Shown here piece by piece: positions 55,786 through 64,000 of a stretch of DNA of 64,000 nucleotides (position 1 is the stretch's first letter; every line of letters starts with the position of its first letter). Under the pieces are notes generated by a model, which did not search any database, was not told where the DNA came from, and saw only the letters and a program-made list of their open reading frames with translations. This stretch comes from Corynebacterium yonathiae. GTDB lineage: Bacteria; Actinomycetota; Actinomycetes; Mycobacteriales; Mycobacteriaceae. The translations under genes and the position numbers were made by a program. The stretch is taken from positions 1 through 64,000 of the forward strand of contig NZ_JAKOPM010000010.1 in NCBI RefSeq assembly GCF_022288805.1, read 5' to 3'.

Positions 55786-56997
55786 TTATGCGGCGACGGG
55801 GCGTGGCGGGATTTCGCGGAAGAACTCCTTGTTTTTCAGCATCGCGTAGATGACATTGCATCGGCGTCGTGCCAGGCAGATGACTGCTGCGTTGTGGCGT
55901 TTTCCTTCAGCGCGTTTGCGTTCGTAATACCGCCGTGACGGTTCGTGGCTGCGGATAACTGCGAATGCGGAGTAGAACAAGGCGTTTTTCAGTCGTTTAT
56001 TGCCTGACCGTGCCGGGAATTCACCTCTGATCGACGAACCGGATCGTCTAGTCACGGGTGCTATTCCAGCATAAGCAGCTAAGTGGCCAGCACTAGCGAA
56101 GTCGGAGCCATCACCGATCGCAAGAAGGATCTGCGCTGCGGTCTTGATGCCGACTCCGGGCATACTCATCAAGACCTCACAAAGAGGGAAATCAGCGAGC
56201 ATCTCTTCAACCTGCTCAGCAATGGTGTTTCGTTGCTCTTTGAGGGCCTGGATGTTTGCAGCCAGTTGAGGAATTACTAACTCGGCGGCATCGCTTCCAG
56301 GCACGGTGACTGTTTGAGCTTTCAGCGCTGTAAAAATGTCGTCTACCAGCGGGGTGGGGTCTTTACGTGTGCGCTTGATCATCCAGTTCAACACTCGTTG
56401 GTATCCGGCTCTTTTTAGCCCCTGCGGTCCCTTGTAATGGATCAATAATTCCAGGATCGGCGTGCGAGTCAGGGTGCTACCAGCAAAAACTCGTTCCAGG
56501 CTGGGGTAGATCTGGGTGAGGACACTGCGAAGCCGATTGACAGTGCGAGTGCAATCGCGGGCGATGTCATCATCGAAGCCGGACAGCATCTTTAGGGCGG
56601 AGAGTACCTCATCATTGCGGTCGACGGCACGTAGCGTGTGGGGCATTGTGCGGGCGGTGTCGGCGATGATGAATGCGTCGCGTTTGTCTGTTTTTGCACG
56701 TCCCGGATAGAGATCTGCAGCTTTGCGCATCGCAAGACCTGGCAGGTATCCGACTTCGCAACCGCAGTCCCGGGCTACAGCAATCGGTAGTGCGCCGATG
56801 GTGTTGGGTTGGTCGACGATCACGAGCACGGTGCCAAGCTTCTGAAGCTGGTGAAAAACGCCTGCTAGTTCGGATTCGAGTTGAGGCAACGGTTTGTCGA
56901 AGACCTTGTTGCCATCACGGTCTAAGGCGCAGGCGTGGTGTTCAGATTTGCCGACGTCTAACCCAAGGAATATGTCGATGGAATGCTCCGGAGACAT
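55786..56997 (-). CDS. IS110-family transposase, copy A
   Basis: This encodes 403 aa. The N-terminal RuvC-like DEDD domain starts FLGLDVGKSEHHACALDRDG (first Asp about residue 13) and includes VIVDQPNTIG and KTDKRDAFIIADTAR. The C-terminal Tnp (transposase_20) domain contains the helix-hairpin-helix-like MPGVGIKTAAQILLAIGD and the serine region APVTRRSGSSIRGE. Such recombinases are guided by a bridge RNA encoded in the element. Length and both domains are complete, so it is probably active. Confidence 0.96.
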   Translation of the reverse strand: MSPEHSIDIFLGLDVGKSEHHACALDRDGNKVFDKPLPQLESELAGVFHQLQKLGTVLVIVDQPNTIGALPIAVARDCGCEVGYLPGLAMRKAADLYPGRAKTDKRDAFIIADTARTMPHTLRAVDRNDEVLSALKMLSGFDDDIARDCTRTVNRLRSVLTQIYPSLERVFAGSTLTRTPILELLIHYKGPQGLKRAGYQRVLNWMIKRTRKDPTPLVDDIFTALKAQTVTVPGSDAAELVIPQLAANIQALKEQRNTIAEQVEEMLADFPLCEVLMSMPGVGIKTAAQILLAIGDGSDFASAGHLAAYAGIAPVTRRSGSSIRGEFPARSGNKRLKNALFYSAFAVIRSHEPSRRYYERKRAEGKRHNAAVICLARRRCNVIYAMLKNKEFFREIPPRPVAA

Positions 56998-60056: not shown

Positions 60057-61268
60057 TTATGCGGCGACGGGGCGTGGCGGGATTTCGCGGAAGAACTCCT
60101 TGTTTTTCAGCATCGCGTAGATGACATTGCATCGGCGTCGTGCCAGGCAGATGACTGCTGCGTTGTGGCGTTTTCCTTCAGCGCGTTTGCGTTCGTAATA
60201 CCGCCGTGACGGTTCGTGGCTGCGGATAACTGCGAATGCGGAGTAGAACAAGGCGTTTTTCAGTCGTTTATTGCCTGACCGTGCCGGGAATTCACCTCTG
60301 ATCGACGAACCGGATCGTCTAGTCACGGGTGCTATTCCAGCATAAGCAGCTAAGTGGCCAGCACTAGCGAAGTCGGAGCCATCACCGATCGCAAGAAGGA
60401 TCTGCGCTGCGGTCTTGATGCCGACTCCGGGCATACTCATCAAGACCTCACAAAGAGGGAAATCAGCGAGCATCTCTTCAACCTGCTCAGCAATGGTGTT
60501 TCGTTGCTCTTTGAGGGCCTGGATGTTTGCAGCCAGTTGAGGAATTACTAACTCGGCGGCATCGCTTCCAGGCACGGTGACTGTTTGAGCTTTCAGCGCT
60601 GTAAAAATGTCGTCTACCAGCGGGGTGGGGTCTTTACGTGTGCGCTTGATCATCCAGTTCAACACTCGTTGGTATCCGGCTCTTTTTAGCCCCTGCGGTC
60701 CCTTGTAATGGATCAATAATTCCAGGATCGGCGTGCGAGTCAGGGTGCTACCAGCAAAAACTCGTTCCAGGCTGGGGTAGATCTGGGTGAGGACACTGCG
60801 AAGCCGATTGACAGTGCGAGTGCAATCGCGGGCGATGTCATCATCGAAGCCGGACAGCATCTTTAGGGCGGAGAGTACCTCATCATTGCGGTCGACGGCA
60901 CGTAGCGTGTGGGGCATTGTGCGGGCGGTGTCGGCGATGATGAATGCGTCGCGTTTGTCTGTTTTTGCACGTCCCGGATAGAGATCTGCAGCTTTGCGCA
61001 TCGCAAGACCTGGCAGGTATCCGACTTCGCAACCGCAGTCCCGGGCTACAGCAATCGGTAGTGCGCCGATGGTGTTGGGTTGGTCGACGATCACGAGCAC
61101 GGTGCCAAGCTTCTGAAGCTGGTGAAAAACGCCTGCTAGTTCGGATTCGAGTTGAGGCAACGGTTTGTCGAAGACCTTGTTGCCATCACGGTCTAAGGCG
61201 CAGGCGTGGTGTTCAGATTTGCCGACGTCTAACCCAAGGAATATGTCGATGGAATGCTCCGGAGACAT
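60057..61268 (-). CDS. IS110-family transposase, copy B
   Basis: This encodes 403 aa, identical in sequence to the copy at 55786-56997, including the DEDD domain (GLDVGKSEHH) and the C-terminal serine region (RRSGSSIRGE). Absence of differences between the two implies very recent duplication or gene conversion. It lies directly upstream of the metal ABC promoter and is read in the same direction as the operon, away from pcp. Confidence 0.96.
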   Translation of the reverse strand: MSPEHSIDIFLGLDVGKSEHHACALDRDGNKVFDKPLPQLESELAGVFHQLQKLGTVLVIVDQPNTIGALPIAVARDCGCEVGYLPGLAMRKAADLYPGRAKTDKRDAFIIADTARTMPHTLRAVDRNDEVLSALKMLSGFDDDIARDCTRTVNRLRSVLTQIYPSLERVFAGSTLTRTPILELLIHYKGPQGLKRAGYQRVLNWMIKRTRKDPTPLVDDIFTALKAQTVTVPGSDAAELVIPQLAANIQALKEQRNTIAEQVEEMLADFPLCEVLMSMPGVGIKTAAQILLAIGDGSDFASAGHLAAYAGIAPVTRRSGSSIRGEFPARSGNKRLKNALFYSAFAVIRSHEPSRRYYERKRAEGKRHNAAVICLARRRCNVIYAMLKNKEFFREIPPRPVAA

Positions 61269-62257: not shown

Positions 62258-64000
62258 ATGTCTCGCTTTAGCCCTCTCAACTGGCCGGTTGTGCGCCAGC
62301 TGCGCAGTGGCGATCCCTTCGGAAGGGACGTCAATACGCAGTCTCAAAAGAGTAAAGATAAGCATGGGCGCACCGTGGAAGCGGACCGCGTAGTGCAGTC
62401 GGTGTGCCCGTACTGCGCGGTTGGTTGCTCGCAGCGCGTATATGTCAAAGATGACCGCGTCATTCAGGTGGAGGGCGATCCGGATTCGCCCATTTCTCGT
62501 GGACGCCTGTGCCCGAAGGGATCTGCGTCGGAGCAGTTGATTAACTCCGCTACGCGCCTTACCAAGATTAAGTATCGTGCGCCGTACTCGACGGAGTGGC
62601 AGGATCTTGATGAAGATACCGCGATGGAGATGATTGCGGATCGTTTCTTGGAAGCCCGCCGGAACGGTTGGCAGGATGTGGACGATGAAGGTCGCACGCT
62701 CAACCGCACGATGGGCATTGCCGGTTTGGGCGGTGCGACCTTAGATAATGAGGAAAATTACCTCATCAAGAAGCTTTTTACCGCCGCTGGTGCGATTCAG
62801 CTCGAGAACCAGGCGCGTATATGACACTCCGCCACTGTTCCTAGTCTAGGAACTTCGTTTGGCCGCGGCGGCGCAACCCAACCGCTGCAGGATATGGCGA
62901 ATGCGGACTGCATCGTCATTGAGGGTTCTAATATGGCCGAGTGCCATCCCGTGGGGTTCCAGTGGGTGGTGGAAGCCAAGAAGCGTGGTGCCCGCATCAT
63001 TCACGTGGATCCGCGTTATACGCGCACGTCTGCCTTTGCGAATCGCCACATTGGCATTCGCGGCGGTACGGATGTGGTGCTTTTGGGCGCAGTCATTAAC
63101 TACCTGCTGGACAATGACCTGTATTTCCATGACTACGTGGTGGCGTATACCAATGCGCCGATGATCATTTCGGAGGACTACCAGGACACCGAAGATCTGG
63201 ACGGTCTGTTCTCTGGTTATGATCCAGAGACCGGTAAGTACGTCACGGATTCGTGGCAATACGTGCAGAAGCCGGAGGGTGCGTCGTGGAATGTGGAACG
63301 CGATGAGACGCTAGAGCATCCGAATTCGGTCTTCCAGATTCTCAAGCGGCACTACGCGCGCTATACGCCTGAGGTAGTGGAGGAGACCTGCGGTATTGCG
63401 CAGGAGGACTTCTATTACCTAGCGGAGTCGATCGCGCGGAATTCCACGCCGGATCGCACCACCTGCTTTGCTTATGCGTTGGGCTTTACCCAGCACACTC
63501 TGGGTGCGCAGTTTATTCGTACCGCGGCCATCTTGCAGCTGCTCACCGGCAATGTGGGTCGCCCAGGTTCGGGCATTATGGCGCTGCGCGGCCACGCCTC
63601 AATTCAGGGTTCTACCGATATCCCGACTCTGTTCCACTCCTTGCCGGGATATTTGCCGATGCCGAGCGTCGACAAGCAAAGCTGGCCAGAGTTCGTTGAT
63701 GGAATCCGTAATGAGTCGCAGAAGGGCTTTTGGCAGATCGGTGAGAACTATGCGGTCTCGCTGATGAAGTCCTACTGGGGCGATGCAGCCACCAAGGACA
63801 ACGGATGGGGCTATGACCTCATGCCGCGCATTTCTGGTGCGCATTCGACCTATGAAACGCTCATGGCCATGCTGGATGAGCAGGTGGAAGGCTACTTTGT
63901 CTTTGGCCAGAACCCGGCCGTGGCGCAGTCCAACGGCGGTATGCAGCGCCGCGGCTTGGCGGCGCTGAAGTGGCTGGTCGTACGCGATTTCCAGGAGATT
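62258..64000 (+). CDS. Formate dehydrogenase alpha subunit, in-frame UGA (Sec), 3' end outside window
   Basis: At least 581 codons, running off the window. The N-terminal [4Fe-4S] motif is CPYCAVGC...CPKGSAS (Cys about residues 50-90). The motif LENQARI is followed by TGA (62822-62824) and then HSATVPSLGTSFGRGGAT, so UGA falls exactly at the active-site Sec/Cys that binds Mo or W in FdnG/FdhF enzymes. The frame stays open to 64000 with normal domains after it (PVGFQWVVEAKKRGARIIHVDPRYTRT). I see no twin-arginine signal. ATG 62258 has AAAGGA only one base away, so the start is uncertain; GTG 62237 is an alternative. A nonsense mutation is the other reading, less likely. Confidence 0.88.
62837..62853 (+). 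promoter_or_regulatory. SECIS-like hairpin after the UGA
   Basis: GTTCCTA and TAGGAAC form a 7-bp stem with a GTC loop, 12 bases after the UGA. Distance and apical sequence CTAGTCTAG resemble bacterial SECIS elements of formate dehydrogenase mRNAs, in which SelB recognises the loop. It is coding sequence as well. Confidence 0.75.

Follow-up and report, generated by a model that had tools for sequence, protein, structure and literature searches.

The window, the whole 64,000-nucleotide stretch of Corynebacterium yonathiae DNA analysed here, ends inside a gene for a formate dehydrogenase (FDH) alpha subunit, whose reading frame starts at the ATG at 62258 and is open to 64000 except for a single TGA at 62822-62824 (context ENQARI, stop, HSATVPSL). 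Because the gene runs on to position 65524 of the contig (C1), its end at 64000 is merely the edge of the window. The actinobacterial formate dehydrogenase model NF041513 matches the translation with 317.7 bits before and 653.4 bits after the UGA; each half lies below the whole-protein cut-off of 1400, whereas both together reach 1765.1, above it. The features of the locus, with C1 marking contig coordinates beyond the window, are as follows.

62258..64000, plus strand: alpha subunit of formate dehydrogenase (FdnG/FdhA type), codons 1-581 of 1088; matches NF041513 and 1kqf_A
62819..62821, plus strand: codon preceding the UGA, ATA (Ile) with third base A; proposed part of the recoding context, ATA or ATT only in the genus
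62822..62824, plus strand: UGA predicted to be read as selenocysteine, residue 189; TGA in 79 of 79 genus copies, aligned with X of FdnG (1kqf_A)
62837..62853, plus strand: predicted SECIS hairpin, stem 62837-62843 / 62847-62853, loop GTC 62844-62846; judged by conservation, covariation and a Cys control
C1:65525-66583: Fe-S subunit; TIGR01582 at 174 bits, under its cut-off of 334.7
C1:66580-67695: NrfD-type membrane subunit; PF03916
C1:68284-69267, minus strand: selD; 390.4 bits, cut-off 125
C1:69438-69528: tRNA-Sec gene (selC), anticodon TCA; 76.4 bits, gathering score 47
C1:69795-70823: selA (domain); SelA 331.5 bits, TIGR00474 426.7 with cut-off 267.9
C1:70875-72647: selB; 287.4 bits, cut-off 242.25, SelB winged-helix domain PF09107

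The protein carries both an Fe4S4 domain (PF04879) and a molybdopterin domain (PF00384), and its best match among solved structures is FdnG of E. coli formate dehydrogenase N (1kqf_A, E=1.7e-207, query residues 44-1016), in which the non-standard residue X, which we take to be Sec196, aligns with the UGA site. Both domains are thus found together with Sec/Cys at the metal-ligand position, as in Sec-type FDH alpha subunits (FdnG/FdhA). The frame and the structural alignment agree with the initial annotation, which had seen a lone TGA breaking an open frame at the Sec/Cys site of this family.

The genes selD, tRNA-Sec, selA and selB lie on the same contig, 4.3 to 8.6 kb beyond the window edge, where the initial annotation had only expected them somewhere in the genome. 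The SelD is a Cys form with the motif GGGCACK, presumably the site at which some SelD proteins have Sec. The SelB shows 100% identity to the one in the record of strain c21Ua_68 (L148). The presence of selB and selC is the signature of the Sec-decoding trait in the available part of one survey (PMC1273633), and here both occur together with selA and selD; SelB and tRNA-Sec, whose absence would have counted against a selenoprotein, both score above their thresholds. Searching the genome with a covariance model of the FDH SECIS, which detects only close relatives of that element and may miss a selenoprotein with a different SECIS, we found no second convincing site (next best E 0.208), and we dropped the candidates for a second selenoprotein because these matches were weak (E 0.208 and worse). 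Within that reach FDH is the sole client seen, which fits the pattern reported in the accessible part of another survey, in which FdhA or SelD was found in every selenoproteome (PMC1794560).

Upstream of the FDH gene, a search gave no promoter match, and terminator-like sites numbered 2 compared to 0.8 (sd 0.9) in shuffles; both a promoter and a terminator were dropped on these grounds. Two transposase ORFs of 403 aa on the minus strand (window 55786-56997 and 60057-61268) are identical in DNA, and the identity extends for 123 bases on the low side and 242 on the high side. They are of the IS110 type, with PF01548/PF02371 in the second copy, and the ORFs between them resemble a metal ABC transporter by eye, an arrangement reminiscent of a composite element, next to the FDH locus.

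The hairpin downstream of the UGA

Twelve nucleotides past the UGA, as the initial annotation had noted, lies a perfect 7-bp stem (GTTCCTA-GTC-TAGGAAC) with a GTC loop, a UGA-loop spacing of 19 nt and a minimum folding energy of -10.6 kcal/mol over 39 nt. The bSECIS model, as given in the available part of its description, specifies a loop of 3-9 nt with a G in the first two positions, a stem of 4-16 bp, a UGA-loop spacing of 16-37 nt and an MFE of at most -7.5 (PMC13188914), and the loop GUC, the 7-bp stem, the spacing and the energy of the window hairpin fall within all four ranges.

Taken in the window sequence alone, the hairpin is weak evidence, no better than chance, because a null that samples synonymous codons at local usage reproduces it readily. 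The identical 7-bp/3-nt stem arose in 8225 of 200000 synonymous draws (4.1%). For any stem of at least 7 bp within 39 nt the figure was 8545 of 40000 (21%), and 1304 of 3000 draws folded at least as stably as the window sequence, whose folding energy is unremarkable (z -0.13). Within the FDH gene the exact geometry follows only 1 of 1074 codons, and some stem of at least 7 bp follows 151. We therefore set aside folding energy and the single-sequence null as support (z -0.13, 4.1%); chance is excluded by comparison only, through the conserved UGA, the low silent-site variation at the UGA and the compensatory changes.

The comparison covered 78 genomes of the genus, which contain 79 FDH copies representing 41 distinct 42-mers; in extracting the site from the 78 loci we left out two off-target motif matches (one TGT, one TAG). 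All 79 copies have TGA at the Sec site, including that of the second genome of the species (G239, locus L095), and a Cys form occurs in none of them, so the alignment of homologues proposed in the initial annotation bears out its reading of the site. In another genome of the genus (G016) the UGA and hairpin are identical to those of the window, and the 42 nt from the UGA differ by one base, located before the stem. Stem pairs 1 and 3-7 form in 79 of 79 genus copies, with pairs 3-7 making up the core, and 23 of the 79 have a U-U mismatch at pair 2; in 20 loci of other genera all seven pairs form without exception. Close relatives that keep the UGA but lack the hairpin, which would have argued against a SECIS, were not encountered among the genus copies, all of which form the five core pairs.

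We assessed covariation on an alignment of 59 rows, made up of the 41 distinct genus sequences and 18 distinct sequences of other genera, in which compensatory change altering both sides is seen at 2 stem pairs. Cells altered on both sides number 21 compared to 4.9 (sd 1.7) in shuffles, the covariation score is 0.252 versus 0.172, and paired cells amount to 96.6% versus 92.7%. The other two of the five measures did not rise above the shuffles, which were as high in 240 of 500 cases for pairs changed on both sides and in 499 of 500 for further pair types. A lower stem proposed by RNAalifold (columns 8-10 with 39-41) is not claimed here, two of its three pairs being broken in 5 and 7 of the 59 rows.

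The strongest case of covariation is the sixth pair, in which the third, silent codon positions of Pro +6 and Leu +8 pair with each other. Among the 79 genus copies, CCT goes with CTA or TTA in 38 and CCC with TTG or CTG in 41, and mixed combinations are absent; on a quick gene tree, built from part of FDH without the UGA and the next 13 codons, the type of this pair switches at least five times. Relative to expectation, silent sites vary least in the eight-codon windows starting at UGA +0, +9, +7 and +5 (0.45 to 0.47), compared to a median of 0.86 over 1081 windows, although the dip is not unique to the UGA (0.495 in the window at +455). Across these comparisons, the sequences show that the hairpin is under selection, and with the winged-helix domain (PF09107) present in SelB, binding of the hairpin by SelB is predicted.

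Distribution in the genus and the class

The genus sample comprised 242 genomes, including the window's own and one other of its species. A tRNA-Sec scored above the gathering threshold in 78 of them, FDH above its cut-off in 77, with one additional genome (G205) in which the gene is split over contigs, and SelA above its cut-off in 79, one of which (G012) holds a remnant only; the sets with tRNA-Sec, strong SelA and UGA-containing FDH consist of the same 78 genomes. In all 77 genomes with both genes on one contig, the distance between the FDH start and the tRNA-Sec is 6.3 to 31.3 kb (median 6.9 kb; for G105, which has two FDH genes, the nearer one was used). By tblastn of the 78 fetched loci we recovered SelD in 75, SelA in 74 and SelB in 74. 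The loci without any of the three in the fetched stretch were L147 (2.5 kb only), L139 and L142 (both ending before the tRNA-Sec), while L073 was without SelA and SelB, its stretch ending ahead of both; whole-genome search recovered SelA in the genomes of all four.

The SelA remnant of G012 (G012:C1:135783-135956; 24.8 bits over 58 positions, with TGA and TAA inside) comes from a genome that has neither a tRNA-Sec over the cut-off nor an FDH match, and is possibly a trace of trait loss.

The initial annotation had called Corynebacterium a genus not usually associated with selenium use. This needs correcting because C. aurimucosum ATCC 700975 was described in 2010 as having selABD, selC and an fdnG with an internal UGA, with a benefit at low pH suggested (Trost et al., 2010; PMC2830990, in the part available), and because the trait occurs in 78 of the 242 genomes. 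The selABD/selC and fdnG-fdxH region of that strain shares with the window the genus, the genes, the recoded fdnG UGA and their clustering, but it belongs to a different species, and the accessible part of the paper treats SECIS in general terms only (PMC2830990). The matches listed in our literature search, with subscription journals mostly outside its reach, held no further title on Corynebacterium selenoproteins, and the word stem "Corynebacter" was absent from the available main texts of PMC1794560, PMC5029168, PMC5330540 and PMC13188914. The Sec FDH of Corynebacterium is thus solid and not new in kind, its cluster having been described in 2010 in a related species (PMC2830990, as available); roughly one in three of the genus genomes searched has the trait, yet it is little cited.

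Among the genus copies, a divergent Sec FDH type with ENVARI before the UGA occurs at L073 (G105), L145 (G233), L146 (G068) and L147 (G205), the last cut by a contig end; G105 has this type and the usual one about 10 kb apart. On the quick tree the ENVARI type groups with other genera, with modest support. The genus/other label needs 2 changes on that tree, and the starred branches force 1; because they force no more than this one change, horizontal transfer of FDH is not claimed and one origin in the genus is possible. A TAG is found in FDH 183 codons past the Sec UGA at L080 (G142) and 302 codons past it at L145 (G233), and these two copies may be decaying.

The class sample consisted of 296 genomes, 80 of them over the FDH cut-off, and we examined the 30 best-scoring of the 80 loci, leaving out two off-target TGT matches in the site search. 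Among these best 30 the site codon is TGA in 15 and TGC or TGT in 15. Every one of the 15 TGA genes forms the five core stem pairs, 14 of them with all seven, whereas none of the 15 Cys genes does; the TGA genes uniformly have a GTC or GTT loop and CCC for Pro +6, a position taken by Ala, Val or Ser in the Cys genes. Like the window gene, the 15 Cys-type homologues (for example L209 and L224) belong to the NF041513 family with scores over the cut-off; unlike it, they have TGC or TGT at the site and Val at -1 with a third base C or G, and lack both Pro at +6 and the core stem. Cys forms are found within the window's own family in three genomes (L224, L226 and L228). The locus L221 was listed with an internal TGA, yet has Cys at the site, so an internal stop count alone is no proof of Sec.

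Among the SelB loci (L156-L202), 27 of 55 were without a Sec FDH site by motif search of the fetched flank, 18 of these 27 from Brevibacterium; some of the flanks are short, and the selenoprotein may lie elsewhere or belong to another family.

Predicted recoding and the base ahead of the UGA

The genes, the site, the hairpin and the selection on it are evident from the sequences compared, and they make it nearly certain, in our judgement, that the window encodes the catalytic subunit of a molybdopterin-type FDH with an active-site selenocysteine, predicted to be inserted by means of SelB and the hairpin. The aligned X of FdnG, the nearby sel genes and the conserved UGA and hairpin all support the selenocysteine FDH suggested in the initial annotation. 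By established knowledge of these families, from which we infer the insertion of Sec, the activity of the enzyme and the path of the electrons alike, SelD would produce selenophosphate and SelA would convert Ser-tRNA-Sec to Sec-tRNA-Sec; SelB would bring the latter to the ribosome and bind the hairpin right after the UGA, so that Sec is inserted and translation does not stop. Electrons would then pass from FDH to the adjacent Fe-S subunit and on to the NrfD-type membrane subunit. In the E. coli SECIS the apical loop is larger and a U is bulged out, whereas the element described here has a loop of GU followed by C or U on a stem of 5-7 bp.

Were the FDH gene instead of Cys type or in decay, with the TGA a nonsense mutation or a sequencing error, the hairpin would be accidental, and taken by itself it does fall within the synonymous null; a further stop is also present in 2 of 79 relatives. 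Such a reading has next to no probability, however, when all 79 copies have the same TGA, that of the second genome of the species included, when the window frame stays open downstream of the TGA to the gene end, and when a complete Sec machinery lies alongside a gene of which the genus offers no Cys form (0 of 79); it is the UGA in all 79 copies that led us to rule out a pseudogene or a sequencing error. We attach equally little credence to decoding of the UGA by another route, such as near-cognate suppression, with the Sec genes serving another protein: nothing speaks for it directly beyond the fact that Sec insertion is itself deduced here, and against it stand the occurrence of tRNA-Sec and SelA in exactly the genus genomes with Sec FDH, the hairpin that accompanies UGA and is missing with Cys, and the lack of another client in the search with the SECIS covariance model (close relatives only; next best E 0.208).

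Compatible with selenocysteine insertion, and rather unlikely but by no means far-fetched, is partial recoding, in which the UGA would serve as both Sec codon and stop and yield a selenium-dependent mix of full-length enzyme and a 188-residue fragment. In E. coli, UGA-SECIS recoding reaches 30-40% in vivo and needs sufficient selenium, according to the part of PMC4513850 available; the sequence reads the same under partial and full insertion, and no role for the short product is suggested.

Beyond the hairpin, the FDH genes with an in-frame UGA share a bias in the codon before it. In the 79 genus copies this codon is ATA in 72, ATT in 7 and ATC in none, compared to 50 ATA, 1279 ATT and 2253 ATC for Ile elsewhere in the genus FDH genes; among the 20 loci of other genera, 11 have ATA and 9 have ATT, compared to 6 ATA, 46 ATT and 797 ATC elsewhere. 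Pooled over contexts that share descent, and with a species possibly occurring both in the 20 loci and in the 15 of the class comparison, all 104 distinct Sec contexts have A or T immediately ahead of the UGA (ATA 78, ATT 25, GTT 1), whereas each of the 15 Cys genes has C or G ahead of its Cys codon (A or T in 0 of 15). Since ATT and ATC are read by the same tRNA, the constraint seems to act on the base and not through a rare tRNA. We tentatively propose, at slightly worse than even chances, that the recoding signal of actinobacterial Sec FDH reaches upstream of the UGA, such that the -1 base must be A or U and this base or the P-site codon helps SelB to beat termination. Such a rule would not be universal, because fdhF of E. 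coli has GTC ahead of its UGA. The constraint is unmentioned in the available parts of PMC4513850 and PMC8659212 and among the matches listed in a thin literature search.

The bacterium is known from the urine and nose of humans, and its locus is a clean case of a human-associated Corynebacterium that very probably uses selenocysteine; gene callers that take UGA as a stop will split the FDH gene. The 79 Sec copies of the genus, together with the matched Sec and Cys homologues of the class, define an actinobacterial SECIS from covariation, and the comparative Sec/Cys set suggests that the base ahead of the UGA is constrained, which reporters can test.
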